NCBI GenBank assembly: GCA_038501195.1 | Contig: JBBPUQ010000009.1 | Span: 496,001 to 560,000, forward strand | Direction: 5' to 3' | DNA: 64,000 nt | From: Nemania diffusa | Taxonomy: Eukaryota > Ascomycota > Sordariomycetes > Xylariales > Xylariaceae | Part shown: positions 4,927 through 34,000 of the stretch, in pieces | How the letters are laid out: each line of letters begins with the position of its first letter | How positions within the stretch are numbered: position 1 is the first letter of the stretch | The notes under the pieces: model-generated | What the model was told of the DNA's origin: nothing | The model's database searches: none | The model's input: only the letters and a program-made list of their open reading frames with translations | Translations under genes and position numbers: made by a program

Positions 4927-6582
4927 TTACCCACCGGGAACGAAAATATCCGGAATACGGCAAGGCGGCTCCACCTTCCTGATCAAGTAACCAGGATTCT
5001 CTTTAGCCTTTCGGACGATGTTTTCGAATTTTTTTTCGAGCTCTTCAGCTTCTGCACGTTCCCCGGGGTCAATCACAATAAGGTCGTTAGTAATCAGACT
5101 AACGAGTTCTGCCAGACCAGTACCTTTGCCACATCGCGGGTCAGTCCCGAGTGCTTCGAACGTGCGGCGCACAACCGGATGGACCTCTGTCGTACCCCCC
5201 GTAGATCTATAATAGGCTCCCTTCTGAGAAAATTGGTCATCCTCTCGTCTCCGAAGTGATCTGAACTCACTGATCGCTCTCTCGCCGTACAATAACCAGA
5301 TGACAAACTCCGTGAATACACACCCGACCGACCACATGTCGTATCTTCGCCGCCTCGGGGAGTGTTTATCGTATTCAGCTTCCGGAGCTTCATAACAGAG
5401 TGTTGTGGCATTCGTATTCGTTGGGTTGGATCGAAATTCCGTCGCTTGGCTATGGACTCTAGACACGCCAACATCCGCAACGACCAAAGCTCCGTATTGT
5501 TTATTTTCAATGGCTGGATCGCTTGATGTCTGAAAGTGTAGGATGTTCTCCGGTTTCAAATCCCCATGCCGGCAGTTGACGCCATGGAGAGCGGACAGAG
5601 CCTTAACGAGACCGTGCATCTGCTGCAGGGACCACATAAACACTGCGGGGTCTCGTGTCTGCAAAGCGTCAGGGTCTCGCTTCCAGAAATCTGAAAGGTT
5701 ACCTCCATCAGCCCAGGGAAATATGACATAGAAGCGGCTGCCTTGTTGAATAGTGGCGATGTGCCGGACCAGATGTGGGTGTTTAAGATCCTGGATCACC
5801 ACAAGATTATCCTTCTCTCGGGTGAAATCCTTCTCTTCAACATAGTCTTTAATAGCAATCTGGACGGGATCCTTGGTTGCGGGTATCTTGGCAACTAAGT
5901 TAGCTGAAATAAGTTCCTAGTTTACATAGAGACATATTTTACTCACCAAATGGGCTGCGTGAAGCAAGCCTTTATACACAGTGCTTCCATAATTGGGTGA
6001 TATCCTCTTAATGTCGTAGAACGGTAAAGGGGATTGCCGATCAACGCAGATATGCTCACCCTGCATGGTGAGCACCGGTGCGAGGACTAGCCATTGCTCT
6101 TGGAGGAAGTCGGTGATTTCCCTACTCTTCATAACTTTTGAAAACGCATTGAATTCCCTGCCTCGGGAAGAAACCAAAACTCTACAGCTGTCGGACTTCC
6201 AATCAGCTTGCTGTCTCACAAGTGGGAGATCCTCATCTACGAGACCCTCATCGAATAGATCCCATATGGCTGTTTCTTCCTCACAAAGCCCAAGTATCGC
6301 GAACACCTTCCTCGCTTGTTTTGCTACTTGAGAAGAGCGAAAAGATTTATAGATTGGGGTAAGTGAAGATATGGTTAAATTGACTCTGTCCTTTGTGATT
6401 TTATCATCTATAACATCCAAGGGTAGGAATGGAGGAAGGTAAAGACTTTGAGACCCCTCGTTATGATCAGAATTGATCACCATTGGCCTTAGTTGATGGT
6501 AAAGACTCTGGCCAATTGAGTCAGAGTCATAATAGCTAGACTCTGAAGTCTTAGGCGACAGCTGTTGAGATTGCGATAACAT
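4927..6582 (-). CDS. Fungal HGD-type protein kinase-like protein
   Basis: Exon 1 (6582 down to about 5943) carries a ~190-residue N-terminal region and then a glycine loop (SPNYGSTVYKG, about residues 195-205). Exon 2 carries the ATP lysine in QIAIKDY, the catalytic loop HGDLKPEN, DVG in place of DFG, YEAPEAE, and YDMWSVGC. The N-terminal region resembles that of the kinase encoded divergently at 7866 (an aromatic QW motif before the glycine loop), so the two are paralogues. The strong donor GTGAGT at 5946 does not restore frame with either acceptor, at 5904 or 5895. Donor GTAAAA at 5942 does, giving about 535 or 538 aa. The exact junction is therefore uncertain. The DVG variant keeps the metal-binding Asp, so activity is possible. 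The role is inferred to be signalling of the incompatibility type, from the neighbouring genes. Confidence 0.75.
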
Positions 6583-7865
6583 AATTTAGCTGGTGAGGCA
6601 GTCACTACGAATAAATGCTAACTTCATACGATATTAATAAGATATATTCTAGGCGGAGGCAGTCCTATAGCTCTTTTTGACTGGTATAATTTGGTATTAT
6701 GTTCCCTATACCAGACGGCCCCTTTGGCAGCAGAATGTGAGGGCGCGGACCGCCTGACACTAGCCCTTTTCTTCTCTAACAGAATTAATTGATGGCCTAC
6801 ATGATGGCTGCCTTAGACAGGCCTGCAGGTCAACTAGGCGACCATCAGAGCGCATCTTCAGCCGTCAGTCCCTCCATACCAAGACGGCTTAGCAGATGAC
6901 GTATCAGCCACGCCGGACCAATTCACGAATCACGACCTCTCGTGGTCGACCTATGCACACACACACTTGCAATGCAGCAGCTATAGTTAGCAGCCAATCT
7001 GGACGGGAATTCCTCTTCGGTAGGGTGGGTGGGACGTCTTTATACCTACGCTTCGATTTTCACTGGCTGTATTAGGATTTGTTATCTTACAAGGTGGGAA
7101 GGTGGGGTTGGTAGCCTGCTTGCTCCCAAGCAGGGGGGCACCTATGGAATGAAAAGAAAGGAAATAGAATAAGGCAATGGGCGGTAGGCATCTTCTAACG
7201 AAAGAATCTCCAACATTCCTGTCCAGCTACGCCGAACCGACGAACGGGGAATCCGACCCAAACAAAGTACTTGTGACGAACAGCTCAGCCCCCTGTTCCT
7301 GCACCACAGCTGCCCATTTACTCGGTGTGATCGTGGCCTATTACTTTTCTTGCATTTTGGTGACAGCCAACTCGGTAGATTTATTGGTGCTATTGCAACG
7401 AGCATGAACCCAGGGTTTGCTGCCTCCCAAAGGATCTAGATCCCCATATTTAACCCCCCAATCAGTTATGTATGATGACTTGCTTAATGCCAGAAATGGG
7501 TAGTCTACAATCCTGCATGCATAAGTACAGCTTACATACTGTAGATAGTAGGGTGCTGTCATCGCGTCATAGTCTGCCATAGCCCCAATAACTGAATTTC
7601 CTGCCTGGAGGTGTGGCTATAACCCACCATTAGGGTCGCCAGGAGATTTGGGGAGAGAGGGTATGCTTGGCATGGTTGCTTGTAAGCAGAGCCGCATCGA
7701 AAACGCCTGACCAGGAAGATAGACTAGTGATATGTGAGGTTGCTGGTACTATATGTTAATAGCCTTAATCCGCATTGACCATGATCATTATATTTGTGTA
7801 CATCAAGCTTCGGCATGTTCACAATCTTGAACTCCTTCGTCGGTTAAGCCACAATAACTCTACCA
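6583..7865. other. Divergent promoter region between two kinase genes
   Basis: This 1.28-kb gap lies between the start codons of two divergently transcribed paralogous kinases. A short CA repeat occurs near 6956. The open frames at 7142-7580 have no family features. No terminal repeats or RNA genes were recognised. Confidence 0.4.
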
Positions 7866-9898
7866 ATGATTGGTGTTCTAAACATATCAAAGCATTATCT
7901 GTTTCAAGAAATCATGTTACTATTCGGGTCGGGATGGTCTGATCTTGGCCAGAACAAGCAGAACCTACAAGATCCTCAATCATTAATCCGAGACAAACGA
8001 GTCGAAAATGGACACAGGACTATTTCACCAGAAGAAACCCAGAAGTGCCTGTTAGACCTTCACAAACGCATACAAGGCAATCAAGTCATAAACAACTGTG
8101 GTACACCCTTCTTGCCCGAAAGATCACTTCCGAGGCTGCTCAAAAGTATAGACTTTAACGTCTTGCTACCTAGCGCTTCTGAAGAACTAATTCAGTTCAT
8201 CCGCAAGCAGGCATGGAAGGTCTTTTTCGTCACGCTAATGACTCTTCATTGGCAAAGGTCTGATGTAATAGCAGAAGTACTCGAGTCATTTCGAAAACAT
8301 CACTTCACAGACAATATCCTCCCAATTGATTCAAATGATTATGCCTCAGACAATGCAAGTCATGATCAAAAAACAACCCTGCCACCATTTGATAATGATG
8401 ATCTGTGGGGTTCCTGGGGTATGCATCAGTTCTACCTGAACCAGTGGAAGGTCATTGTGCCTACGTTCAAGAAAAACAATTTCGAGCAATTCAAAAAAGA
8501 ACTCCCGAAAGGGACCATCCTACCCCTCATGCGAAAAGAAACGAAAGGATATAGTGGTCATTTTAGCCACGTCTATAAGGCCACCCTCCATGCGGATCAC
8601 CAAGATAAACTTGATTCGGTACATGATTGCAACAAAGCTATAATCTCCTATGCATTTATGCTGATATATCTATAGAATGGAAATCGCGAAGTACAAGTCG
8701 CTCTCAAGGAACTCAAGAATACAATTAATGGGGAAGAAGATCACGACGCGGAGAATTTATGGCGGCGCGAGGCAGAGACATGGAACAAGCTCGACGCTCT
8801 GAATCACCCTCATTTGATTCGTTATATTGCCGCGTTTAAGTGTGACGCGAGTGAGTATTACCTAAACAAATTTCATCTTATTCCGATGAATTGCGTCTAA
8901 CTCAAAATGCTGAAGCGCATTACATCATGTTCGAATGGGCAGATGGTGGCACACTCCGAGATTTCTGGCGCAAATCCCCCGAAGTACACCCTAGGCTTAC
9001 CGGTGCTCGAATTATGGAATTCTTGGCGCAGTTCCGTGGCTTAGCCGACGCCCTCCACAAGCTGCATAATCCAGGGTTATATGACAGGGCGAACAGCAGA
9101 AACCAGACTTCATCAGGCACGGCCAATGTGCCCCCAATTGTTGTCCAAAGTGAAGATAAGCACTGGCGCCATGGAGATGTCAAGCCCGAGAATATCTTGG
9201 TTTTCAAGGAAGAAAAATTGTGGCTCGGAATTTGGAAGATGGCAGACCTAGGTCTAGCTAAAGAGCATGACTTCGCTACAGCATGTCGAGCCGAATCAAC
9301 ATCTACGAAACACACAACCCTACACTACGAAGCACCAGAGGCTATTACTAATAAGTCACAACCAAGGTCCAGGGTCTATGATATATGGTCAATGGGCTGT
9401 ACCATGCTCGAATCCATTATCTGGCTTCTTTATGGCCGTCAGGGGCTAGATGCGTTTCATGATGGAAAAGAGAATTTAAACCTCCAAGAAGAAGGGACTC
9501 TCTACTTCACGATTACCACCGCTAGAGGTAGCCGCAATCCCATCGCTAAGGTGAGCGATAGAGCGGAAAAGTGGATGAGAGAGATAGTACGAGATCACCC
9601 AGAATTCAAGCAGCGCACTGCATTACGGGACTTATTGGAGTTAGTAAGAGACAACCTCCTTGTCTTAGAAGAAGTTCGCTCTAAGGCCTCGCATCTACAT
9701 AAACGACTGGTTGAGATAGAGAAGAATGCAAAAAGGGACGATAAATACCTACTCGTGAGCAAGGGACAGAAACCAGCTCAAATTCCCCCTTCCCTTCGCA
9801 CACGTAGCGGAAGTACCCGTCAATCGGATACCTTACAGCCGCACCGCCACATAGGAGGCACTCATTCACTCGCGAATGGTGGATTTCAACAAAACAAT
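7866..9898 (+). CDS. HGD-type protein kinase, probably the N-terminal part of a kinase-HET fusion
   Basis: Three exons: 7866..8618, 8676..8850 and 8916..9898. The introns have canonical signals (GTACAT/CTATAG with a CTGAT branch, and GTGAGT/GAAG with a CTAAC branch), and both joins keep frame, giving 637 aa up to Asn637. Motifs seen are a glycine loop near residues 225-236, VALKE with Lys262, HGDVKPEN with Asp397, DLG with Asp420, YEAPE at about 447-451, and YDIWSMGC. The ~220-aa N-terminal region is related to that of the kinase at 4927-6582. The kinase domain ends at a point similar to where the paralogue stops. Here a GTAAGT donor at 9899 opens a chain of introns leading in phase into the HET gene. 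If that first intron were retained, the frame would stop at 9952. Kinase activity is plausible because all core residues are present; the target is unknown. Confidence 0.8.
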
Positions 9899-10383
9899 GT
9901 AAGTTCTCATTATTTTGCTATCAGATGCTCGTTGGTGAGCATACTCGAATAACTAACCATATTCAATGCTACAAGAATGTACGCCAATAGTCGAATTTTG
10001 AGACGTGATTAACTGATTACTGACTAAGTAGCTCGGTCGGTATTGAAGACTGTGAGTGGACTTGTCTGAGGACTATACTGAGGTCAACAAGTTGACTGAG
10101 ACAATAGTATGTAAGTCATAGAGCAAATGCCTATTATGACACAGACGGGGATCAGTTACTAATCATTATTTTTTGTTCCTTCAATGTAGAAAGTAAGTTT
10201 CTTGAACTCAACAAGCCACCCTGAGTTACTGACATAAGATATATAGCACGTGAGTGAATTTAATACGTTAAACGGTGTTTTAGAGGCTAATGCTTAACTC
10301 AATTGATTTATTAGGCAGTAAGTTTGTTCTCTTCAATTAAGCTTGCATAACTAATTAAACATTGTGACTAACTACAACTATAG
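9899..10383 (+). other. Array of seven introns separated by six 3-nt exons
   Basis: Six trinucleotides each sit between a 3' splice site and a 5' splice site: AAT 9976-9978, ACT 10049-10051, TAT 10108-10110, AAA 10190-10192, CAC 10247-10249 and GCA 10315-10317. The intervening introns are 77, 70, 56, 79, 54, 65 and 66 nt. Six of the seven donors are GTAAGT or GTGAGT (the exception is GTACGC at 9979). The acceptors are AAG, AAG or TAG, and most introns show a CTAAC-like or CTGAC-like branch site near the acceptor. All exons are phase 0. The array joins Asn637 of the kinase to an exon beginning at 10384 that is in frame with the HET gene. It would add the residues N, T, Y, K, H and A. Splicing is inferred from sequence only. 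The array could instead lie in the 5' leader of a separate HET gene. Confidence 0.65.
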
Positions 10384-10434
10384 ATAAACGACACTTGGGA
10401 AATTGAATCGGATGATATCATTTCTGCGCAGTTG

Positions 10435-12455
10435 ATGGAAACTAGAGGACGAAATGCCTTGCGTATATTTCCAGTGGCCAAAGCATCATTATGTGGGCGC
10501 TGTCTCTCCCTAAACCTCAGCGTTCTAGGCTTCGTTACACGTGAAAAGTTCCCTTCCCTAAAATCAAGAGCAAAAACATGTACATTGTGCGACCTATTTC
10601 TTTGCATTTTCGCCACATCTAATAAGTTCCTCACCAACATTACGGATACCATGGAAATTTGGAGGGTCAAAGGGGGGTTGGCATTAAATAGCAGGGAGGC
10701 CCCAATTCTATCTCTCTATGGCACTATTTGTAAGCATACACAGAACAAGAAGGTTTTCAACCCATATGCTGACTATATTAATAGTCGAAAGCACTACTTC
10801 GAGCCCGCAAGTACAGGATATTCCGATAGGAATACCGAAACTTGCGGCTGTCGAAAGTCGAGAATATTTCGATATTCTCCGTCGATGGCTAGAGGACTGT
10901 GATAACAACCATGAGGGTTGCGAGCCGGAGGATACAGACTCTTCGTTCGCTACTTTACCAACTAGATTAATCAACGTCAGAGAGAAGAATCCGAAAATCG
11001 TGCGTCTTCTCGAGACTCAGCACAGCCATATAACTCCAGGCAGCAGATACATAGCCCTGTCCCATCCCTGGGGCGACAGATCCGAGCACAATCATTACTG
11101 CACTACAAAGCTGAATATCGCCAATCACAAAATAGGAATACCATTCAACGCTCTTCCGAATACTTTTCAAAATGCTATTGAAGTAACACGGCAGCTCGGG
11201 GTGCAATACCTCTGGATCGATTCACTTTGCATTGTGCAGGGAGAAGACGGCGACTTTGAAGATGAAGCAAAGCACATGGAAACGGTCTTTTCTTCGGCTT
11301 ATTGTGTAATTGCTGCAACCTGCGCAAAAGGGATGTCAAGCGGTTTTTTTAAAACTAGGCCAGTCAGAAAAATAGTTAGGTTCGAAAGACCCGGAGAACC
11401 TGCATTTTACGTCTGCGAGTCCATCGACAATTTCCAGAGAGATGTTATTGAGGGGACACTAAACACAAGAGGTTGGGTATTGCAAGAAAGGGCGTTAGCG
11501 CGACGAACAATCTACTTTGCAGAGAACCAGACTTATTGGGAGTGTGGAGAGGGTGTCCGCTGTGAAACAATGATAAGAATGAGAAAGTGAGTGATGAGAC
11601 ACAGGCCTCCGCAGGAGCCCATCATATCTTGAGAGACATCTATCTAATATATTATCTCACTAACGACTCCCTCATAGCAAGCAAGCTGAATTACTCGGCG
11701 ACCCCAGATTTCCTGGGGTAGCTACAAATTCGTCAAAAGGCGGACGTATCTATCTTTATGAGTTCCTATATAAACAATATTCGCGACTCAGATTTACAAG
11801 GATTTGCGATAGGCCTTTAGCAATTGCTGGAATAGAACAGCGACTGATCCGCGCGTTCAATAGCCAGGGCGGATACGGTGTATTCACTGATTTTTTCGGC
11901 CGAGGTCTTCTTTGGCAGCGTGATGTGAAACTACCGTCGCAAACGATGAAGCCAATTCAATTCCCCGAGTCTCAACAATATCAAGTACCTTCGTGGTCTT
12001 GGATGGCGTACGAAGGTGCTATCGATTTCATGGAGCTACCATTCGGAGGGATAGAATGGGAAAAAGAGGAGATTTGCTCGCCTTGGAGTCACTCAAGTCC
12101 AATCCTTCCCTCAGTGTCGCGCGAGAGCATTATATCCAACACCAGTTGGCATACTGCCGAGACGAATGGAAGGAATGATCTTAAGGCAGTTGCTAGGGAT
12201 TTCTCGGCCTTGGCGGATCCTGATATCGTGTACGACAAAGGGGAAAGGCCAGAAAATCGGATTGTGAAGTGCGTGATAGTTGGGAGAAAGAAGATGACAA
12301 CGGGGCTCAAGTCTGACAGGATTCATTACGTACTTGTCGTCTCTCAAAAACAGGAGGCTGCATCTCAGGCGACCTACGAAAGAGTCGGCGTTGGTGCGTT
12401 ACCTGAGAAATTAATCACCATAAGGGGACCTGGCCTACGGGTTCAAGTCATCTAG
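10435..12455 (+). CDS. HET-domain (heterokaryon incompatibility) protein
   Basis: Three exons: 10435..10729 (open in frame back to 10384), 10785..11586 and 11678..12455. The introns are 55 and 91 nt (GTAAGC/ATAG with a GCTGAC branch, and GTGAGT/CATAG with a CACTAAC branch), and both joins are in frame. From the ATG at 10435 the protein is 624 aa. The N-terminus has the paired-cysteine region usual in HET proteins (LCGRC, then CTLCDLFLC). The HET domain (PF06985) shows YIALSHPWG, then LWIDSLCIVQ and AYCVIAAT, and later RGWVLQERALARRTIYF followed by YWECG. HET proteins trigger cell death after fusion of unlike fungal cells. The preceding microexon chain suggests that it is the C-terminal half of a 1,284-aa kinase-HET protein, but an independent start at 10435 remains possible. 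Confidence 0.82.
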
Positions 12456-15835: not shown

Positions 15836-16829
15836 TTATTTTTTTTAAAAATTAAAAATTTAATATAAATTAAATTAAAATTAACTAGATATAATATTTA
15901 AATTAAATATTTTATTATTATTTTTATAATTTTTTATAAATTTATTTATAACTATTATTTTTATTTAATTTTATAATTTAATTAATAGTTTTAATTTAAT
16001 TAATTTATTTAAATAATAATAATTTAATATAATAAATATATTTTTAAAGTTTTTTATAAAATATTAAATATTATTAAAGTTATAACTTTTTTATAAAATT
16101 TAATATTATAATTTTTTAGCTTTATTAAAAATTAAAAATTTTAATATTTAATTTATTTTAAATTTTAATTTATTATTAATTTTTTTAATTAATAATAAAA
16201 CTTATAACTATTATAATAATAATTTATTGTTTATTTTTTTTAATTTATTTATATAAAATAAGTTTTTTTTTTTATATAAATTTAATATATTTAATTTATA
16301 ATTATGTTTTTTTTATTTAAAAATTTTAAATAATTTAAAATATTATAAATTAAAATAAATTATTAAAATATATATTAAAAAACTTTTTTTATATAAAAAT
16401 ATTTTGTTATATTTAAAAAAATTAACAAGTTTTTATTTTTTATTAATTTAAGTTTTTTGTTTTTTTTATATAGTTTTAATAGTTTTATATATAAATTTTT
16501 AAATTTATTATATTTAATTAATTAATTTTTATGTTTATTTAGTTTATTTATTTATAAAAATTTTTTTTTTAAATATAAAAATTTAATAATTTTAAAGCTT
16601 AATTTTAAATGTTATTTTTAAAAATATTATATTAATTATTAAATATTATCAAAAATTATAAATAAAATTTAAAATTAATAAATATATATTTTAATTATTT
16701 TAATATTTGTTTATATAAAAATATAGTTTTTAATTTAAGTTATAATTTGTTTTTTTTATAATATTTTATATTTATAAATAATAAATATTGTTTTATTTAT
16801 ATTTAATATTTATTAATAAATTTAATATT

Positions 16830-17139
16830 TGTTATAAATTATATTTATATTTAAATAAATAAATTTTAAAAGTAATTAATATATATAATATAGCTAATAA
16901 ATAGCTAAAATAGCTAAATAGATTTTATTGTTTACTTAAAACAATAAACCTACTAAAAATTAAACAAAATAGTAAATATAAAAAAAAAGAAATAATAAAT
17001 AAAAAAATACTTATATAAATATATTGACTTAATTTAAAAAATTAGATTTGTTTTTTAGTTTTTTCAACTTTAGTTTTTTTTTAAAAATATATAATATTAT
17101 TTAGTTTTTAAATTTATTGTTAATATTATATTTATTATA
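16830..17139 (+). repeat. 5' LTR of the nested Gypsy element
   Basis: A direct repeat matching 23539..23848, also 310 bp. It keeps the TG start that has become TA in the 3' copy and has scattered G and C lost from the 3' copy, so it is slightly less mutated. Confidence 0.85.
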
Positions 17140-20100
17140 AAACTAAAGTTTATTTTAACTATTTAAAAAAACAATAAATTTTTAAAAACTTTTAAATAAA
17201 TTAATTAATTTTAATATATTAAAATAATATAATTAACTTTTAATAATAATATATTTATTATTAACTATAAAAAAGTTAAATAATAAATATAATTTATTAA
17301 AAATAAATTAGTAAAATTTGTTTTATAAATATAAATAAATTATAAACAAAATAAACTATATTAATAGTTTTAAAACTTTTAAAGTTTATTTAAAAATTAT
17401 ATAAAATATATTTATATAATAAAATATATTATAAATAATAACAATAAGTTTTATTATAATATTTTTAATAATAAAAGATTTTTTATTTTTAATATTTATA
17501 AAAAATTTAAGTTTATTTATAAAAACTTTAAAAAATATAATAAGTAATAACAATATATAGTTATTAATAAAACTATATATAATAATATAATCGAAAAAAT
17601 AATAATTAATATTAAATATTTTGCTATTTATAACAAAATCTTTTAAATAGTTTTTATTTTTTTTATTAAAAATAAAAAGAAAATATAGCTTAAATATAAT
17701 AAACTAATAATTTTTAAACAATTTTAAATAATAATAAATATTTATAAAAAAGCTATATATTAAAAGTTCAAATATTATATTTTATAATTAAACGTTGTTT
17801 AAAAAACTATAAAAAAGCTTAAAAATATAATAAAGTTTTTTAAATAAAATATTTATTTTTTATATATTTAAATAATTAAATTAAAAAAAAAAACTAAATA
17901 ATAAAAAATAAATATAATTTATTAAAAAACTAATTTTTAAAATATTATATTTTATAAAGCTATAAATATTTATAAAAAAAAAATTATAAATTTAAAAAGT
18001 TAAATCGAAATTTTTTAAAATTAAATTATAGCTATAGTAATTATAGCATTAAAGTTTATATTAATAATATTTATTAATAATTTAATTTTTATTGAAATAA
18101 CTTAGCAATAAAAATAAAAACAAAAAAATATTTTAAATTTTAAAATTATTAATAAAATTTTTATAATTATTAAAAAAAAAACTAAATTGTTAATTAAAAT
18201 AGCTAATTTATTAATATTTATTAATAATAAACTAATAAAAAATAAAACCAAAGTTTAATTTAAATATTAATTTATATTATTAAAAAATAAATTAATTAAA
18301 AATATTAATTATTATAACTAAGATTTAAAAAAAATCAATTATATTATTAATTAAATAAAAAGTTTTACTTTTAAAAATATTATAATATTTATTATAAATA
18401 ACTATAAAAAAAAGTTTATTTTAAAAATAAATATTAAAGTTTTAAATTATTTATTTATTTATTATTATAATTTTAATAAATATAAAAAAATATAAATTAA
18501 ATATTAAAACTTTAAAATATAAAATTTTAATAAATTTATATAATTTAATATAAAATTTACTAAATAAACTAAAGTTATTTAAATTAATTTAATAAATTTT
18601 AAAAAAAATTTATATAATAAATTATTAAAATAAATTAATAAGTTATATATTAAAAAGTTATATAATAATTAAATAATATTTATTAATTTTTATAATTATA
18701 TTTAAATATATAATTATTAATAGTATAAAGATTTTATTATTTAAAAAATATAATAAAAAAAGAACTTTTTAAAAATAACTAAATAAAAAAAAAACTTAAA
18801 ACTTAAAAAAAAAAAAAAACTTACAAAATTAAATTTATATTAAAAAAATAGCTTTAAATATTTAAATATTTTAATTTTAAATATAATTTTAAATAGTTAT
18901 TATATTTATATTAAAGCTTTATTTAATTAAAAAAAAGTTTTAATTTTATAAAAATAATATTTTATATATTATAATTAAAAATATAAAAATAATAATTATT
19001 TTTATAAGTTTAATTTTAAATAATTTAATATAATTTATATTAATATTATTTTTATTTAAAATATAAAATTTAAATAAATAAAAGCTATATTAAAAAAAAA
19101 ACTAAAAAATATTGTTTAAAATAACTAAACTTTTATTTTAAATAAATTTATATATTAATATTAAATATAAATAAATATAAAAAGATATTATTTGATTTTT
19201 TATAAAAACTATTAAAAAAAACCTTTTTTTTATAAATTATATAATAGCAAATAATAAATTTACTTTATTAATAAAAATATTAACTAATATAAAAACAAAT
19301 ATATATTTATTAATTAAATTAAATTTTATTATAAAAATTTTAAAATATTTAAAATTAAAAACAATTATTAAATTTATATTATTTTAAATAATAAATTATA
19401 ATAAAAAAGCTATATAAATTATTAATATTATTTTAAAAATATATTTTTATATATAAAACAAAATAATTTTAAATATATTTTTATTAATAATAAATATAAA
19501 ATATAATATTATTATAAAAAAAAATATTTAAATTATTATAATATATTAATAAATAGCAAAAAAAGAAAATTATTATTTTTTAATAATTAAAAATTAAAAT
19601 ATTAAACTTTTAAAATTTTAATAAATAATATAAAAAATTTATTGTTAATTTTAATTATTAATAAAATATAAATTATTAATAAAAGTTAATAAATATAAAA
19701 AATAAAAAAAAAATAAACAAATAAATAAACTAAATATATTAAAAGAAAAGAAAAAAACAAAAAAAATATAAAAACTAAACTTAAAAAAGTTTGTTTTTAT
19801 ATTAATAAATTTAAATATTAAAAAAAATAAATAAAAATTATATAAAAAAAATTATTAACTATTTTTTAATTGTTTATTTTAATTTTATGTTTTTTTTAAT
19901 ATAGTTTTAATATAAATAAAAACTATTTATAATAAAAAATATAATATATAAAATATATATTAAAAATTAAAATTTATAAAAATAATTTAAATTTATATAT
20001 TTTTTTTATAAAAAAAAATATAAAAACTATAAACTAAAAATAAAATATAACTAATATAGTTTATATTAATTATAAAAAAATATAATTAAATAATATAAAT

Positions 20101-23100
20101 ATTAATTAATTTAAATTAATATTATTAATATAATAAAATTTAATATAATAATAAAATAAAAAAATATTATTTTATATAATATAATTTTATTATATAAACT
20201 AAATAAAATAATTTTTTAAAAAAAGTATAAAAAATTAATAAAAAATAAAAAAAAATTAATAAAAACAATATTATATATAATTTTTAAAAAACATTATAAA
20301 TATTTTAATATATTTAATAAAATAGCTTTAAATAATTTTTTATTATATTATTTAAATATTAATTATTATATTATTATTAATAAACTTTTTAAAGCTTTTT
20401 TAAAATATAATATATTATATAAAATATTATTAAAAAAAATAAAAATATATTAAAAATATATTAATAATAATTTAATAAAAGATTTTATTAAATTAATAAT
20501 AATATTATAAACAATATTAATTTTATTTATTAAAAAAAAAAACAATTTTTTATAACTATATATAAATTATAAAAAATTAAATTTAATTTTTTAAAAAAAT
20601 AAATATTTTTTATTTTTAATTAATAAAATTTTAGTTAAAATATTTTAAATTAAAATTTATATAAAAATAAACATTTAATAAATTTTTTATTATATTTAAA
20701 TATTTAAAAAAAAAAAATTATTAATAGCTTTTTAAATAAAATATAAAATTTATTAATTTAAAATATTTTTATTTAAATTAATAAATAAACTAATAATATT
20801 TTAATATTATATAAATAATATATTAAAAAATTATTTAAATATTTTTTATATAATATATATTAATAATATATTAATTTATTTTAATAATAAATTAAAATAT
20901 AAATATTATATTAATAAAATATTAGTTTATTTAAAAAAAGTTAAATTATAAATTAATTTTAAAAAATATAAATTTTATATAATAAAAATTATATATTATT
21001 AAAATTTATTTTATAATAAAAAAAAAATATATATTTTAAAAAAATATAATTATTTTTAAATTTTTGCAACTTTTATAAAAAATTTATAAAAAAATATAAA
21101 TAAATTATAAAACTATTTATTAACTTTATATATATTAATATATTATTTTAATAAATTTAAAAATATTAAAAAATATTTAAAATTTTATAAATAGTTTTAA
21201 TAAATATATTTATTTTATAATATTTTTTTTATAATATTAAAACTATAATAAAAATTAATTTTTTTAATAATATAATATTAAATATATTATTTTAAAAAAA
21301 TAGTTTAAAAAATTTATAAAAACTAATTACTTTTTTTTCGAAAATATTTTATAATATAAAATTTAATTATAAAATATATAATAAAAAAATATTAATAATT
21401 ATAAAAAAGCTTTTATATTAAAAAGCAAAATTAATTAATATATAATATTTTTTTATAGTTTTAATAAATTATATAGCTTTAAAATCTTTTAATATAAAAA
21501 AAATATTAAATTTTTAATAAATAAAATAAATAAAATTTATAAACTATTATTATTTTATAATTATATATTATTTAAATTTAAAAAATATTATTATTAATAT
21601 TTTTTTAAAACTTTTAAAAAATATAAAAATATAAAAAAAAAAAAAATCAAATAAAAAACAATAGTTTTATTTAAATTAATCACTTTTTTTAATAAAACTT
21701 TATAAAAATTTATAATAATATATATATTAAAAAATAATGTTATATTTTTATTAATTTTTAAAATATTATTAATTAATTTAGTTTTAAAAACTAATAAAAT
21801 TAATAATAATTTAATTAAATATAAAAAAAAAACTTATATAAATTAAAATTTAATATTATATAAAAAATATTTAATAATATTAAATATTAATTATTTATAT
21901 ATTAAACTAATTAAAAAAATATATATTTAATTAGTTATAATATATTTCAAAAAAAATAAAATAAAAATTTTAATAACTTAAAAATATTAATAGTTTAAAA
22001 TTTATAAAAAAATAAACTAATATATAATAAATTATTTATATAAAATAATTAAAATTTTAAAAAATAAAATATTAAAAAAACTAAAACTTTTAAATATATT
22101 AAAATATATATATTAATATATAATAATAAATTTTAAATATTTTTTTTTAAATAATAATAAAAACAATATAATTTTTTATATAATTAATAAATTATTTAAA
22201 TTTATATAAACTATAATTTATAAAAATATAATAACTATAAAATAAATTATAAAAATATATTATAATAAATTATATTAAATATATAATTAATTAAAAAGTT
22301 TTATTAATAATTATAGTTTTTATTTTATAATTAAATTTATAAAATAAAACTAAACTTTTTTTTTATTAATTATAAATAAACTATTAAATAAATAAAAATT
22401 ATATATTAATAAATAAATTAAAAATTATAATTTTTTATTAATTATTTTTAAAAAAACTAGTTTAAAATATTATTAATATTAAATATAATATAAATATTAT
22501 TATTATATAAATTATTAAAAAGTTTATTTTTATATAAAATATTAATTAATTAAGTTATAAAAATAATATTTAATTAAAAAACTAAAATAAAAAAATTAAC
22601 ATTTAAATTAAAAAAAAAAAATTAAATTATAAAAAAATATAAAATTTTATAACTAAAATATATAAATATATAATTATAATAAAATAATAAATATTTTAAA
22701 TTTAATAAAAAATAATTAATTAAATTAATAAATATTATTAAAATTTTAATTTTTTAATAAAAAATTAAATATATATTTTATAAAAAAAAAAAAAATAAAT
22801 AAATTAATTTAATAATAAATTAAATTATTAAATTATAAAAATATATTATAAAATTATTAATAATAATAAAAAAAATATTTTTAAATTTTATTTATGAAAT
22901 TTTTAAAAAAGTTTTTAATAGTTTTAAATAAATTAATTTTATAAATATTTAAAAAATTTATTTTTAAAATAAAACTTTAAATATTTAAAAAAAAAAATTA
23001 TAAATTTTAAATATAACAAAAAAAAATAAAAAATTAAAAAAGTTTTATTATTATATATTAAAATAAATAAATTTTATTATAAAATAACTTAAAAAAATAA

Positions 23101-23538
23101 AATTATAATAATTAAAAATATTTAATAAATATTTTAAAAAATATATTTATATATATATAAAAATTTTATAATTAAAATTTTAATATAAAAAGTTTTTTTA
23201 TAAAGTTATTAAAATAAAAAAAAATAATATAAAAAAAAACATTTATAAAAAAATATTTTAATAATAATAAAATAAATATAATAAAAAAATATTATATATA
23301 TAAAAAATAAAAAAGTTTTTAAATATATATATAATATTATATAAATATTAATAATATTATTAAATTAATTATTAATATAATAAAAAAATAATAAAAATTT
23401 ATAATTTTTATATATAAATTAATTATATATAATTAAAAATATTTTTTTATTATTTAAAAATATTAATTTTAAAAATTTATAATTTAAATATTTAATATAA
23501 TAAAAATTTAAATTAAGTTTTTTATATATAAAAAAAAT

Positions 23539-23848
23539 TATTATAAATTATATTTATATTTAAATAAATAAATTTTAAAAATAATTAATATATATAATAT
23601 AATTAATAAATAATTAAAATAATTAAATAAATTTTATTGTTTATTTAAAATAATAAATTTATTAAAAATTAAATAAAATAATAAATATAAAAAACAAAAA
23701 ATAATAAAAAAAAAAAAATTTATATAAATATATTAATTTAATTTAAAAAGTTAGATTTATTTTTTAATTTTTTTAATTTTAGTTTTTTTTTAAAAATATA
23801 TAATATTATTTAATTTTTAAACTTATTGTTAATATTATATTTATTATA
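23539..23848 (+). repeat. 3' LTR of the nested Gypsy element
   Basis: Aligned with 16830..17139 over its whole length; the differences are nearly all transitions. An A-rich tract just upstream could be the polypurine tract. Confidence 0.85.
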
Positions 23849-25094
23849 ATATTTTTATAAATTTTAAAATAAATAATTTAATATTATTAAAAATATAATA
23901 TAATATATAGTAATATTTTAATATTAATTTTTTTATATTATTTATTTTTTAATTAAATAAAATAGTAATAATTTTATTAAATTTATTAATTAATATTTAA
24001 ATATAGTTATATTTTTATTATTTATTATTATATATTTTTAAATATTTTATAATATAAATATTAAATATAATAATTTAAAAAGTTTTTTTTTTATTTTTTT
24101 ATTATATTTATATTTATATTTATAATAATTATTAAAATATTAATATAAGTTTTTTTTAAAAAAAAACTAATAATAGTTTTATTTTAAAATTTATATTAAT
24201 TTGTTTTAATTTTAATAAACTATTAATATTAATTTATATATTTTTTATAATAAAACGGTTTAAAAAAAATTGTTTTATTTATAATAGTTTTTAATATTAT
24301 AATTTTTTTATTATAACTTTTTAAACTTTAAGTTATATTTTTTTTAAAAATTAAATTAATTAAATTTATATTTTTTATAATTAATATTTTAGTTTTAATA
24401 AATTAAAAAATAACTATAAAACTTTTAATTATATTTAATTTAATAAATATAAAAACTTTTATTTTTTATTTTTAAGTTTTAATTATTAATAAATTAGTTA
24501 TTTTTTAAAAAAATATATTAGTTATAATATTATTTTTTTTTTATTTATATTAAAAAGTAATATTAAAATTATTTAAAAAGTTTATTTATTTAATTTATTT
24601 TATTAAAAAAGCTTTTTTAATTAATTAATAAATTAATATTTAATAATTTAAAATAATAATATTTAAAAGTTTATATTATTATTAATATTTTTTAATTTTA
24701 AATTAAATAAATTTATTTATATAAAATTATAATTTTTAAAAAATAATTAATAAATTTTTATTTATTGTTTTTTTATTTTTATTAAATAATTTTTTTAATT
24801 ATATTTTAAAAAATATTTATTTTAATATATATTAAAGCTTTAAATTAAAAAAAAGCTAATATTAAAATTAATATAATTAATTTTTTTATTATTTAAAAAC
24901 TTTTTATTATTTTAATTTTAATTTTTATTTATAGTTTTTTTTTAATAATTATATAGATAATTTAAAAATATTATTAATATAATAAATAAATATTTTTATA
25001 AAATTATAAAATTTTAAAAATAATTAAATTAATATTATAGTTTTAAAGTTTTTAAATTTTTAATTTAAAATTATTTTGATTTTTTTTAAGTTTA

Positions 25095-25402
25095 TGTTAA
25101 CCTAATAACTTAATAAAATCTATATATATATATTAAATATATACAACTAAAACTTAAACTAGAATTTTTATTAAATAACTAAATAAATAAAAAATACAAA
25201 AACTTATTAAGATTTACAAAACTTACAAGTTTTACATATATATATATATAGATAATTTATATATAACTTTTTTAGTTATATTTTCTTTTGTAAAATATAT
25301 ATATAAATTAATATAAAACTTTAAAACTTAAAAATAAACTTTAAATTTTATAAATTATTTTAAATCTTTTTATATATATATATATAAAAAGTTTTATTAA
25401 TA
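25095..25402 (+). repeat. Left LTR of the second nested element
   Basis: Starts TGTTAACC; the matching right copy starts TATTAAAT. Contains two long TA runs conserved in both copies. Confidence 0.85.
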
Positions 25403-28400
25403 TTAATTAGTAATTATAAAATATAATTATAAATTAACAAAATAAAAAAGCAAAAACTAGTTATTGTTAAAAATAACTTTTATATTACATTTTTTTTTTT
25501 TTATATAAAAAATAAATTATTATTTTTATTAATTAACTAAAAACATATTAAATTAATTATTAAATAAATAAAGCTTAACTATTGTAAAATTGAAGTTTTT
25601 TTTACAATAGTTTAATTAATTTTTATATAAAAATTAATAAAACTATAAATTATTTTATATATTTATTTTTTCGATTATTTTATTTATTTTATAACTTTTA
25701 CTTTTTTACTTTTTATAATTATATTAATATTAATAATAAAAGTAATAGCAATAGTAGCAGCTGTAACAATTAAACAAGCTTAAAATAATAATTTAATAGC
25801 TTTATATAATAAAAATAACTTTATATATAAAAATATAGCTAAAAGTAACAGTATTTAAATAAAAATTAAAAAAAAAAAATAGATTTAAAATATTAAAATA
25901 TAACTATTAACTTTAATATTTTTTTAAAATTTATAAAATTAACAATATATTTTATACAATATTTATATAATTATATATAATTAAAAGTCGAAAATAAATA
26001 GTTTATATAAATATTTATAATAAACTTTTATAAATAAATAAAACTTATATTTATAAATATTAGTTATATATTTAAATAAAAATTTAATATTATAATTAAA
26101 TATAATTTAAATATTTAATTATATAATATAATATATAATAATAAATTTATTTATATTTTTAAAAAATATAAAAACAAAAATAATAACAAATTAAATAATA
26201 ATATATTTATATAAACAATATTAGTTTTAATATTTATATTAATAAATATATTAAAACTTTTTGTTATATAAATAAATCTTTTAATATTATAATTAGCTAT
26301 ATTAAAACTAATAATACTAATATATATTTTAATATTTAATATAAATAATTAAATAATTTTTTTTTTTATATAAATAAAAACTTAAAAATTTATATTTATT
26401 TTTAAAATTTTTACTATATATTTTATATTTTTATTTATATATAAAAATCAATTATATAAACTTTTTTTTATTTAGATTATTTATAATAATTTAATTAAAA
26501 CAATTTAATTTACTATATTTACTAAAATATAGCGATTTAATTAAAACTATAATAATAAACTATATAATATATTATATAATAAAACTTAAATTTTTATTTT
26601 AATATATTATTAATTTAAAATTATTAAAAAATAATACTATATAATATTTTTTTTTATATTAAAAAAAAAAACTAAATAGTACTATTTTAACTATATTAGT
26701 TTAATATATAAATAAAATAAAATTTATATAATATTTAATAATTATTTTAATATAATAATTAATTATAATTAATATTAAATCGATTAAACTATTATTATTT
26801 TTATATAAATAAAATAAAATAATTTAATAAAAATAATATTTAAAATATTAAAAACTATAATTAATAAGTTTTAATTTATATAATATGTTTTAAAATTTAG
26901 CTATTATAAAAAAATATTATTTTATATAATAGTTATATAAACATGTTTTAATATATTTAAGTTTAAATTTGTTTTAATTAATTAAAAATTTATATATAAA
27001 GTTTTATTTTTTAATTTATAAATAATATTATAAGTTTTTTTTAATTAAAAAATAAACTATTATTATATAATAAATATTTACTTTATTAATAAATAATATA
27101 ATATTAAATATTTAAAACAATTATATAATTATAACTTTAAAAAAAATTTTTATTAAAAATTACAACAATTATATAATAAAAATAATAAAAATAATAAAAA
27201 GTATTTTATTTATAAAAAGCTTAGTTATTAATTTATTAATTATAATTAATAAAAAAAATTAAAAACAATAAAGCAATATTTTGTTATATATAATATTTTA
27301 AAATAAAAAGCTTTATTATATAAAAAATATAAAATATTTATATTAAACTATAAAAATAATAAAGATTTTTTATATAATAATAAATTTAATAATAACTTAA
27401 ATTTTAAAATCGGAAATAAAACAGTTTAATTTTTAATAAATTTAATATATTTTTATTATATAACAAAAAAAATATATATATATTTAAAACTAAATATTAA
27501 TATTAAATAATTTTTACTTAAATAATTAATATAATATAAAATATTAAAATATTTTATAAAATATTAATATAATTAAAGTTTTAATTATTAAAAAAGTTTA
27601 AGCTAAAATTTTTATATAAAAAAACTTTTTTATATAAATAAATTAAATTTTAAATAATATAGCAATTTAATTTAATAATATTAAAAGTTTTAAAATTATA
27701 AATATTATAATTATTTTAATATTAATTAAATTAATCGAATTTTATATTTTAAATATATTAATTTTATTTTTACTGTTATTATAAAATATAAATTAACTAT
27801 ATATTTATTTTAATAATATATAAAATATAATTATATAACAAAATAATATAATAGTATTAATTATATAAAAATAAAAACACTTGTTTTTTAATATTAGCTA
27901 ATTAAAAACTACAAATTATTTTATAAAATAAAAGCTTTAAAAATTATATTATTAATTTAAATATTTTTATATAAAAAAACTTATAAAGTTATTATAAAAA
28001 ATTAAATATAATAATATTAATATTTTAATATTTTAAAAAATTAAAAAATTTTACTATTATTATTAATTATATAATTAAGTTTTAAAAGAATTTAAATTTT
28101 TATTAAAAAATAAATATAATTTTAATTATAAAATTATTATTAATATTATATAAATTAATAAATAATTAATTTTATATATAATTAATATAAATATTTTGTT
28201 TTAAATAGCTAAATTTTTAAAGTTTTTAAATATATATAATATTTAAAATATATTATATTAATGTTAAATTTTAATATATTAAAAACTATTTAATTATATT
28301 ATATATAATTTTAGTATAAATTTTTTATTTAAAAAATTTTATAATAATATATAACTAATTAAAATTTTATATAAAAAAATGTTTATTAAAATATATTAAA

Positions 28401-30701
28401 CTATTAAAAAAGTTAAATAAATATATATATTATTTTATTATATATTTGATATTTTATATAAAAAAATTAATTATTATATAAATACAAAAACAATATAATA
28501 AATAGTTATAAAAGCTTTAAATAATATAATTAAATTAAATAGTTTTATATTTATTTTATTAATTTTTAAAGTTTATTTTAAAATTAACAGCAATTTATTT
28601 TTTTTATTAAAAATTATTTAAAAAGTAAAAACTATATAAAAAACTATAAAAATATTAAAAAATATTTATATAAAAATTAATATTAATTAAACTATATAAA
28701 CTAAAAATAAACTAATATTATTATATAAAATATTTTTTTTATTTTTTTTAAAGTAAAATTATAATATAAAAAAAATAAAAAACTAAATAAAACTATATAA
28801 AATTTCTATAATTAAAAATTATAATATTATAATTAATATAACAAATAAATTAGCTAAGTTTTATTATATATAAATTAAATTATATTATTAATAAAAAGTT
28901 ATATTTAATTTATTATATAAAAAAAATAACTTTTTATATAATTTTTTTTAAATTGTTAAATAATTGTAATTTTAATATAAAAATAAACTAAAAAAATTAT
29001 TTATATTTATTAATAATTAATACTTTATATTAAAAAAAATTAACAATTATATTTTAATTATATAATTAAAATAAAATAATATAATTATTATATTTAAAAT
29101 ATTTTTTAAATAATTAAATATAATTAAAATAAATATATTAATAATTTAAAATATATTTTAGTTTATATAATATAATTTAAATTAATATAACTAAATAAAA
29201 ATTTTTTAAACTAAGTTTATATAAAAAATTAAAAATAAAATAATTAAACTATATAAAAAGTTTAAATTAATTATATAAAGTTATAAAAATAATAACAAAA
29301 TTTAAATTTTTATATAAATATTAATAATTTAATATATAAGTTAATAATTTATTATAATTTTAAAACTATTATTAATTTAAAACTATAATATATATATAAA
29401 ATTGCAAAATATTTTTTAAATATATATATAGTTATATAATAAATTAAACTAAAAAATTTATATTTATTTATTAAAAAAACTAAAAAACAAATATTTAATA
29501 AATATTATATTTTAAATTATATAACTATTATATAAACTAACTAAATTAAAATTATATTAATATAAAATTTATTATAAATATTATTATTAAAAATTAAATA
29601 TAAAAATATTTATATATAATTTATATTTATTATATATTAAAAAAAAAACTTAATAAATTTATAATTATAAAACTTTAAATAAATAATATTTTTAATATTA
29701 TATTTAAAAAGTTTTTATATGAAAAAAAAATTAAACTATTATTTTATATAAAATTAAAAGTAAAATTAATATTTAAATATTTTATTAAATTTAATAAAAA
29801 TAAAATTTAAATAAATAAATAAAATTTTATTTTTATTTAATAAAAACAAACTAAATAATTATATATTATTAATTTTTATATAAAAAATTATTTTTAATAA
29901 TATATTATTTAATAAATTTAAAATATATATATTATATTAATATATTAATTAAAAATATTATATAATTTATTAATTATTATATAAGTTTAAAAACTATTAA
30001 AAAATAATATTAAAATATTAAATATATAAATATAATAGTAAATTAATAATATATAATAAAAACTATATTATATATTTTTAAATTTTAATTATATAAAAAT
30101 ATTTATTTTTATTATTAAAATATTTATAAATAACAAAAATTTAAGTTTTTAAATTAAATTTATAGTTATATTAATTAATAAAAGCTATATAAAAAATACT
30201 TTTATAATTAAAAATAATATTGTTTATTAAAGTTTATTTAAATATAAACAAATTATATATAATATATTAATAAATAAATTATATAATATAATCAATAGAT
30301 TTAATTATATTATTATATTCAATATAATTTTTTAAAAAATTATTTATATCATAAAATTGTTAATTATATTATTAATTATATATATTAATTTTAAATCTTT
30401 ATATAAATGTTTAATTAAACTAAAAATTATATAAAAAAAACAACTTATAATTAATATTATATTATTTTAAAAAATATATAAAAATTATAAAATTATAAAA
30501 ATATATTAAATTAATAATAAAAACAACTTAATAAACATTTATATAAAAAAATACTTAATTAAATATTAAAAAAATTAATTAATATAAATAAACTAATTAT
30601 ATAAATAAAAGTATATATAAATTAATTATATAATAAAAAAAATAACAAAAAATTAATTAATATTAAAACTAAAATTACTATATAAAAAAAAGAATTTTTA
30701 A

Positions 30702-31009
30702 TATTAAATTAATAATTTAATAAAACTTATATATATATATTAAATATATATAATTAAAATTTAAACTAAAACTTTTATTAAATAATTAAATAAATAAAAA
30801 ATATAAAAACTTATTAAAATTTATAAAATTTACAAATTTTATATATATATATATATAAATAACTTATATATAACTTTTTAAATTATATTTTTTTTTATAA
30901 AATATATATATAAATTAATATAAAACTTTAAAACTTAAAAATAAACTTTAAACTTTATAAATTATTTTAAATCTTTTTATATATATATATATAAAAAGTT
31001 TTATTAATA
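30702..31009 (+). repeat. Right LTR of the second nested element
   Basis: Same length (308 bp) as the left copy and carrying more C-to-T and G-to-A changes. Confidence 0.85.
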
Positions 31010-34000
31010 GTTTATTTTAATATTTTAACTAGTTTTTAAAATTATATTTAAATAATTAATTATAATAATTTTAAAATAAAATTTATAAATATTTTTTTAA
31101 AAATTAATTTTATATAAATAATATATTATTTTTTTATATTGTTTTTAACATTTTAAAATTTTATTAAAATAAATTAAAATATTATTAATATATATATTAA
31201 TAAATTAATTAAATAAATTATAAAATTAAATATTAATAAAGTTTTATTATTATATAAATTTTATTTTTAAATTAAATAATAAAATTATTTAATAAAAACT
31301 TTTTAATTTAATTTAAAATATAATTAAAAAATAAAATTTAATTATTAATAATAATTAATTAAAAGTTTTAATAATATTAAATTTTAAATATATTTTTAAT
31401 TTATAATAATTAAATAATATATTTTTAAAGTTAAAAGTTTAAATAATTTAATTTTTTAAAAATTAATTTTTTTATTAAAAATTAATATAAAATTTTTTAT
31501 TAATTAAATAAAATTTAAATATAAATAAAATAAATATTATATTTAAGTTTATATTTAATTTAATAAATTTTAATTTTAATAGTTTTTTTTTTTTTTTTTT
31601 TAAAAAAAATATATTAAATTAATATATAATATTATAAAAAGCTATTATTTTTAAATTTATTATTAAGTTTTAAAACTATATTATAATTAAATTAAAACAA
31701 TAATATTTTAATCAATTAAATTTTAAAAAAAAAAATTTTTAAATAAATTAATTTTTTAAATATTAATTGTTTTATTAGTTTAATATATTTTAAGTTTTTA
31801 TTAAATAAAAATAATATTCATTTATTATTAAAAGTTTTTTATTATTTTTTATATAAAATATTAATATTAATTATTTAATTAATATTGAATATTTTTATAA
31901 TATATTAAATTAAAATCGATTTATTAAATATATTAAGTTTTTTTTAACAAGTTTAATTTAAATTATTTATATAATTTTATTTTAATTAAATAATAACTTT
32001 TATATTAATAGTTTAAGTTTTAAAGTTTTAAATTATATTATTAATTAATATATTATTTTATAATATTTTATAATAATATTTTAAATTATTTTTTTTTAAT
32101 TTAATTTTTATTTTTAAATTTATTTTATTTTATTATAAAATATAATATTATTTTTTTAATTGCTTTATTATATTAATTTATATTTTATTAAATTTTTAAA
32201 TTAATAGTTTTTTTAATTTTAATTTTTAATAAAATAATAATTATAAAAAAAAATTATATAAAAATAAAAATATTATTAAACTATATAAATTATTTATATT
32301 AATAATTTATTAAAATATTTTATTTTAATAGCTAATATAAATTAATTATTATTTAATAATTAATATTAATAACTTTAAACTTTTTATTAAAAAAATAAAA
32401 TTTGTTTATTTTTAAAATAGCTTTTAATATTTAGTTTATTTTATTAATTATTTTATTATAATAATTAATTAATAATATCGGTTTTTTTAATTTAATAACT
32501 TTAATTTTAAATTAATATTTAATTTTTTAAATTAATTATTAATTAATTAATAAATTAATTTAAGTTTTAATATTATATAATATAATAATTATAATATTAA
32601 TTTTATTAATTTATATTTATATAATTTAAAAAAAGTTTAATAAATTATTTAAGTTATTTAAATTAACTATAATAAATATTTAAATTAATATAAAAATTTT
32701 TATTAATTTTATTTATTTTTTAAATTTTTAAAACTAAAAAATTTATTAAATTTTAATTTATTATAATTTTTTATTTTTTAAACAACTAATATATTGTTTT
32801 TTTTTAAAATATTATTTAATTATATATATATTTTCTTTTATAACTAAAATAAATATTATTGTTTTAATATATTTTTTTTTAATTATTAATTAATTTTTTA
32901 TATTTATTATTTTAAAAAGATTTGATTTTTTTTTTAGTTTTGCTAAATTTATTATTAAAATAAAAGCTTTTTTTAAAATTAATTATATTTAAAGTTTAAT
33001 TTTTTTAATTTTATTTAAATAATTGTTAATAATTATAAATAGTTTTAATAACTTTATTATAAAACTTTTTATATATAAAGTTTAAATTAATGTTAGTTTT
33101 AAAGATTTTATTATTAAAATTAATATTTAAATATTTTTAAAAGAATTAAATTTATTTTAATTTAAATATTTTTGCTTTTTAAATAAAATTATTAAAATAT
33201 AAAATAAATTAATAAATATTTATTTATTTAAAAAATTTATAATAATATTTAATAAAAATTTATTAAATTATTATAGTTTAGTTTAAATTATAATAAATAA
33301 TAATTAATACTTAAATTATTTTAGCTATATTATTAAACAATTAAATATTAAATTAATAATAAATTTTTATTAATTATAAAATAAATTTTTTAAATTAAAA
33401 AAACAAATAATATATTTAATTTTTTTTATTATAAAAAATAGTTTTATTTTTTTTGAATTTATTAATAAGTTTATAAATTTAAATATTAAATTTGTTTTTA
33501 TTATTAATAAACTTTTTAAAATATTTAATTTTTGCTTTAATTTTATTTTAATAAATAATATATTAATTATTAAATTTAATTAAAAGTTTTTTAAATATAA
33601 ACTATATAGTTATATTATAAAATTAAAAAATAATATTTAAAACTGTTTTAAAAATATTATTTTTATAATTATATTTAAAAAATATAACTAAATTAAATTG
33701 TTTTTATAATATAATTATTTATTAATAAAAAAAATTAATTTAGATTTTTTATATAATAATTATATTTTATTTAATAATAAGTTTTTTTTATTATTTAAAA
33801 TTACTATTGTTATTTTAGTTTATTATTTTAAGTTATTAATATAAAATTAATTTATAAAATTTATTTTTATTATTAATAAGTTTTATAAATAATAAAATAA
33901 TAAATAAAATAATAATTAAAATAATAATTAAAATTATAATTAATTAATTAAATAAATTTAATTAACTTTTAAGTTTAACTTTAAATTTTTAAATAATAAT

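Follow-up and report, generated by a model that had tools for sequence, protein, structure and literature searches.

The window, a stretch of 64,000 nucleotides from Nemania diffusa (contig JBBPUQ010000009.1, positions 496,001 to 560,000), carries a divergent gene pair, a protein kinase gene on the minus strand (4927-6585) and a kinase-HET gene on the plus strand (7848-12455). We found that within the kinase-HET gene a protein-kinase exon is joined to a HET-side exon by a chain of seven GT-AG introns of 54-79 nt (9899-10383, plus strand). The introns are separated by six phase-0 exons of 3 nt, which spell N-T-Y-K-H-A, and the frames on both sides of the chain are open. The features of the locus are as follows.

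4927..6585, minus strand: divergent partner kinase gene (PF00069, E 3.3e-22 in ORF 4927-5916; ORF 5917-6585 is the predicted 5' part)
8916..9898, plus strand: kinase exon upstream of the array (Pfam Pkinase / PK_Tyr_Ser-Thr; PF00069, E 2.1e-16 on ORF 8855-9898)
9899..9975, plus strand: array intron 1, 77 nt, GTAAGT..AAG, from splice signals
9976..9978, plus strand: one-codon exon 1, AAT (Asn); paralogue B also has AAT
9979..10048, plus strand: array intron 2, 70 nt, GTACGC..AAG; among the introns of paralogue B it is closest to intron 2 (z 3.0)
10049..10051, plus strand: one-codon exon 2, ACT (Thr); B has the synonymous ACA
10052..10107, plus strand: array intron 3, 56 nt, GTGAGT..TAG; z 4.8 against B intron 3
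10108..10110, plus strand: one-codon exon 3, TAT (Tyr), the invariant codon, Tyr in eight of eight arrays
10111..10189, plus strand: array intron 4, 79 nt, GTAAGT..TAG, from splice signals
10190..10192, plus strand: one-codon exon 4, AAA (Lys); B and E have AGA (Arg), C and D have Ala
10193..10246, plus strand: array intron 5, 54 nt, GTAAGT..TAG; z 2.9 against B intron 5
10247..10249, plus strand: one-codon exon 5, CAC (His); B and C have CAT, D and E have Phe
10250..10314, plus strand: array intron 6, 65 nt, GTGAGT..TAG, from splice signals
10315..10317, plus strand: one-codon exon 6, GCA (Ala); GTG (Val) in B
10318..10383, plus strand: array intron 7, 66 nt, GTAAGT..TAG; here B, C, D and E carry one extra codon exon and intron
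10384..10729, plus strand: exon 3' of the array, starting I-N-D-T-W, with a CxxC...CxxC block; 3' end predicted from the GTAAGC donor at 10730
11048..11488, plus strand: HET domain (PF06985, E 1.9e-29)

A preliminary description of this DNA had reported the seven introns, the six in-frame phase-0 exons and the open flanking frames, and our analysis confirmed these base for base. It had also pointed to strong donors and to branch-like sites upstream of the acceptors, and both hold. GTAAGT or GTGAGT follows five of the six 3-nt exons and GTACGC the remaining one, the first donor (9899) is GTAAGT, and a YTRAY site is present in all seven introns. Over the whole window the pattern AG-NNN-GTRAGT occurs seven times on the plus strand, five of them inside the array, and once on the minus strand. 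The 5' acceptor of the upstream kinase exon is predicted to end at 8915. The exon that follows the array has, together with its paralogues, an L/I-x-x-x-W type start, and the W, a D and four Cys are invariant in eight sequences. No Pfam family scored over the cut-off in the four sequences of this exon that were tested.

Seven more kinase-HET paralogues in the same genome carry such an array, with 4-8 introns, at the same place between kinase and HET. Briefly, the last acceptor of each array was set by hand, guided by the L-x-D-x-W type start that is conserved in the following exon, and the chain was then found by a script in which small exons were restricted to 3-12 nt in multiples of 3 and the splice-site scores were hand-set rather than trained on Nemania diffusa. 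All comparisons are between paralogues within this one genome. The eight arrays together comprise 52 introns (46-93 nt) and 44 small exons, of which 42 measure 3 nt and the other two 6 nt.

Array A (window), 9899-10383, plus strand: N T Y K H A, 7 introns
Array B, C7:1.526 Mb (L003/L033): N T Y R H V N, 8 introns
Array C, C11:2.224 Mb (L036): L D Y A H R P, 8 introns
Array D, C3:3.154 Mb: H E Y A F T A, 8 introns
Array E, C2:0.412 Mb: RN D YT R F T P (RN and YT are 6-nt exons), 8 introns
Array G, C9:3.659 Mb: Y N V F, 5 introns
Array H, C8:1.271 Mb: Y N P, 4 introns
Array J, C1:0.826 Mb: Y N R, 4 introns

These genes were collected by genome searches in which the kinase exon gave 37 matches and the HET-side exon six; two paralogous HET-side exons used as queries returned 9 and 7 places and no further gene. 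A Pfam kinase family was found in all eight array genes (in J, Pkinase lies below the cut-off and PK_Tyr_Ser-Thr above it). The HET domain (PF06985) is over the cut-off in nine family members, the eight array genes and a paralogue without an array, F. The kinases of the array paralogues are 28-42% identical to the array kinase of the window, with B at 48% over a shorter match. A further kinase locus, copy I (C1:6.235-6.241 Mb; L019, L040), has Y, N and F codon exons and a second kinase fragment about 3 kb downstream. It looks broken, with a stop just before the array and a HET-side frame that is not open, and this gene (C1:6.237 Mb) was excluded from the array counts for that reason.

The chain in the window is not a product of chance. 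In 60 dinucleotide-preserving shuffles of each of the eight array genes the longest chain had three introns, compared to the 4-8 observed; for the window gene (6-kb region) a three-intron chain, the maximum, arose in 2 of 60 shuffles, compared to seven observed. The antisense strands of the array genes gave chains of at most two introns. Both tests allowed 3-nt exons only, a rule under which D counts seven introns and E five. We then considered 35 control sequences, 33 loci plus the rest of the window in two parts, and found no chain of at least four introns on either strand of these 173,077 bases (about 7 kb of overlap included). Chains of three were present in the controls, one with 3-nt exons and ten with 3-12 nt exons. 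Among these controls are 15 of the 54 NACHT places in the genome, with flanks of about 1.5 kb, and none has a chain of four or more. Likewise no such chain was found upstream of eight other HET genes (20,008 bases); there, chains reached two introns at most when exons were held to 3 nt, and two chains of three appeared when 3-12 nt was allowed. Across loci L001-L037, runs of at least four introns were seen only at kinase-HET loci and in the broken copy I. Within the sequence examined, the array loci and about 193 kb of controls, the chains are restricted to the kinase-HET family.

The 3-nt spacing was also seen when, unlike in the chain script, no multiple-of-3 limit was placed on it. When the gap from HAG to GTRAG[TC] was counted inside the arrays, 27 cases fell at 3 nt and none at 0, 1, 2, 4 or 5 nt; outside the arrays, the remaining 37,644 bases of these gene stretches contained two cases at 3 nt. 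Recursive splicing at a zero-length exon, in which AG is directly followed by GT, was considered and set aside, with no gap-0 case inside the arrays. The idea that the trinucleotides are intermediates of stepwise splicing, raised in the preliminary description, found no support in this count (0 at gap 0, 27 at gap 3). A likeness to stwintrons had been proposed as well; it fails at the junctions, where excision would create a new GT at none of seven positions in the window and at 4 of 52 over all arrays.

The codons of the chain keep their places. Tyr (TAT or TAC) is present in eight of eight arrays (in E inside a 6-nt exon) and also in the broken copy I and in paralogue F. When codon order was shuffled 20,000 times the codon-column score of arrays A-E was never reached; the score of A-D was reached by three shuffles, as was that of A-E without the Tyr column. 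For gene E one residue of each 6-nt exon entered this test (N of RN, Y of YT), and results without E are given alongside. Smaller subsets gave a weaker signal, the score being reached by 197 of 20,000 shuffles for B, C and D and by 951 for C versus D; with the Tyr column removed, it was reached by 37 shuffles for B-E and by 4,180 for B, C and D. Between A and B the six codons differ 0, 2 and 4 times at positions 1, 2 and 3, and the Thr, Tyr and His codons change only synonymously, while the intron bodies of the two arrays are 57% identical (215/376 aligned). When all pairs of A-E are pooled, the differences are spread about evenly over codon positions 1, 2 and 3 (37, 34 and 36 of 66), thus the third-position signal rests on the close pair A/B. 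Our comparisons suggest that the amino acids of the chain are conserved in order and under selection across duplications.

We found little likeness among the introns themselves. The preliminary description had called for a pairwise comparison of the seven window introns and had suggested that the array grew by repeated insertion next to one splice site. The comparison gave a mean z of 0.2 over 21 pairs (top 2.3) and no group likeness. Recent growth of this kind is disfavored, since the window introns are barely more alike than shuffled sequence and chains are also present in paralogues with 28-42% kinase identity. Over the arrays the within-array mean z ranges from -0.42 to 0.38, and the highest of 155 pairs is 3.9 (introns 1 and 5 of C). 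A search for tandem repeats returned a single 22-bp tandem repeat, and neither such repeats nor intron self-similarity left a convincing trace of duplication. Introner-type multiplication, which calls for mutually similar introns, was likewise set aside, as the introns within arrays lack that similarity. An origin by intron multiplication may be old enough to have lost it. Between arrays, the introns of A and B are alike in order (z reaches 4.8 and is at least 1.9 for five of seven), and the other eight array pairs compared had no in-order similarity. The highest value between arrays is a z of 5.1 for B intron 8 and C intron 5, which may reflect intron copying or may have arisen by chance, given the many comparisons made.

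Paralogue F (C3:5.79 Mb) has the codons without the chain. In F they are fused, and a single open exon reads N-T-D-Y-R-L-P-S-L-D-Q-W. The distance from the Tyr to the Leu of the next exon is the same as in B, C and D, and E is one residue longer through its 6-nt exon. From splice signals and frame, F appears to keep one intron just upstream and two downstream of the fused codons. The kinase stretch of F changes frame, with matches in two frames, and contains a stop that only the predicted upstream intron would remove. In a kinase tree F pairs with the eight-intron gene C (support 90/90). A tree of the HET-side tail places F with A-E against G, H and J (94/92) and leaves the pairing of F with C open.

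Local intron loss in F, as by recombination with a cDNA, is the simpler reading because F pairs with the eight-intron gene C in the kinase tree. If F lost its introns so, the loss would be a fossil of the fully spliced message. The reverse order, with F ancestral and introns inserted later codon by codon, would account for the neighboring introns that F appears to keep, which oblige any loss to have been local. We consider that order unlikely given the same F and C pairing, bearing in mind that the deeper branching and the root of the kinase tree are unsure and that the tail tree does not settle F and C. Judged from these sequence comparisons, the chain is old in the kinase-HET family and has been kept with its codon order.

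Taken together, we have high confidence in reading 9899-10383 as the part of a single kinase-HET gene that encodes the linker in successive one-codon exons, whose introns would be removed singly and whose codons would remain in the message; that the codons belong to the message of one kinase-HET gene is very probable. Every short intron comes with a donor and an acceptor of its own and nearly always with a branch-like site (YTRAY 7-60 nt from the 3' end in 48 of 52 array introns), and is probably removed as a unit by ordinary intron definition. In keeping with this, 29 of 52 array donors read GTAAGT or GTGAGT, although just 11 of 52 are preceded by a G. We infer that the introns are excised one at a time, simultaneous excision being unlikely because neighboring sites are only 3 nt apart. 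The spliced codons would then join a message that encodes kinase-(N-T-Y-K-H-A)-HET. Retention of one intron gives a frame shift or an in-frame stop in 51 of 52 cases, so almost any single retained intron would truncate or scramble the protein downstream of the kinase, and the HET domain would depend on complete processing of the chain.

Two readings would keep the codons out of the message or divide the locus, and we regard both as highly improbable. A single long intron from 9899 to 10383 would keep the frame. It would leave unexplained seven complete donor-acceptor sets, codons conserved by position and matching codons fused in F, and it is at odds with control regions that have no such chains. 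That a kinase gene ends before 10384 and a HET gene starts after it would fit the many HET proteins in which, according to the available part of a review, HET is the sole known domain. However, kinase and HET flank the chain in phase in eight of eight array genes, and in F the codons run uninterrupted into the HET-side exon. The array paralogues and the fused F therefore argue against two genes and also against one 485-nt intron that discards the codons.

Other readings accept the linker and concern its use. That the cell exploits incomplete splicing to make a kinase-only protein, and arms HET by complete splicing, is in our view unlikely. The effect of retention in 51 of 52 introns and the position of the chain between kinase and HET in eight of eight array genes would suit such a use, and Xlr2 of Trichoderma virens offers, in the excerpts of PMC11121469, a fungal microexon switch of 20 nt. 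On the other hand, truncation upon retention is expected of most introns and paralogue F manages without the chain. The fuller version, a conserved gate in which obligatory serial splicing decides between a kinase-only and a kinase-HET death protein and which was kept through repeated duplication, we hold to be a shade more doubtful than that. Still less likely is that codon exons are skipped in varying combinations, diversifying the linker as described for the truffle NACHT-ANK genes in the excerpts available. Skipping codon exons would keep the frame, so that some of them may be skipped even under our main reading. Each of the 44 small exons has a length divisible by 3 (the only lengths that the chain model allowed), and the gap count, which had no such limit, also peaks at 3. 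Against it, the codons are conserved in identity by position, which suggests steady inclusion.

The truffle genes are the nearest precedent. According to Iotti et al. 2012, as cited in parts of PMC10197012, PMC4986451, PMC3689799 and PMC9815663, the NACHT-ANK (nank) genes of Tuber melanosporum hold dozens of 3-bp mini-exons that are alternatively spliced. The remark in the preliminary description that tandem one-codon exons are very rare has to be qualified in view of these genes. Here too tandem 3-nt in-frame exons lie between short spliceosomal introns (42 of 44 small exons at 3 nt), and both cases concern fungal genes linked to non-self recognition. They differ in that, as far as those excerpts describe, alternative splicing in truffle diversifies a NACHT-ANK recognition domain, whereas here the exons lie in a kinase-HET linker and their codons are conserved by position. 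Arrays of codon-sized exons therefore have a precedent in truffle, and what is new here is the gene class, kinase-HET, and the conservation at the protein level. Term searches of the open-licence PMC literature brought up no description of chains like these in kinase-HET genes.

Other known systems are further removed. Stwintrons share the packing of several spliceosomal introns in fungal genes, but as described in the available text one intron splits the donor of another, whereas here each intron is complete and is followed by a codon; a term search of the stwintron paper PMC9024468 for microexons and related words found none. The microexons of plant APC11 and VPS55 are, in the excerpts of PMC8831610, old and one to a few nt long, with GTRAGT donors conserved at VPS55. 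They are single tiny exons or an adjacent pair, in contrast to the chains of six or seven seen here. The same excerpts report APC11 copies with the tiny exon merged in one exon, ascribed to reverse-transcription-mediated intron loss, a published parallel to the local intron loss proposed for F. Xlr2 (PMC11121469) is, in the part available, a functional microexon in a filamentous fungus, regulated by glucose, and differs in being a single exon of 20 nt.

Our data suggest that seven or eight introns set only 3 nt apart can be processed by a spliceosome that works on short introns, and that a chain of this kind can persist across gene duplications while selection acts on the amino acids it encodes. 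Gene-finding programs would probably overlook the chain and split the gene in two, which would hide the kinase-HET family. Together with the truffle genes this raises the question of why chains of codon-sized exons occur in fungal genes of the non-self and cell-death type.

The surroundings of the array recur at several loci. Where the two window kinases align, the partner kinase shares 38% identity with that of the array gene. Six array genes (A, B, D, G, H and J) each have such a second kinase match, divergently oriented on the other strand at a distance of about 3-6 kb. The kinase tree sorts the partner kinases into two groups (98/98 each), one with the partners of A, B and D and the other with those of G, H, J and C; at C the partner is placed convergently. 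This suggests that kinase and kinase-HET are an old gene pair, and it is possible that the divergent pair is a two-gene immune or allorecognition locus. Elsewhere in the window, 16001-34000 and 42001-45000 are AT islands with 2-10% G+C per kb, between stretches of mostly 40-53%, and look like extreme RIP-type decay of repeats.
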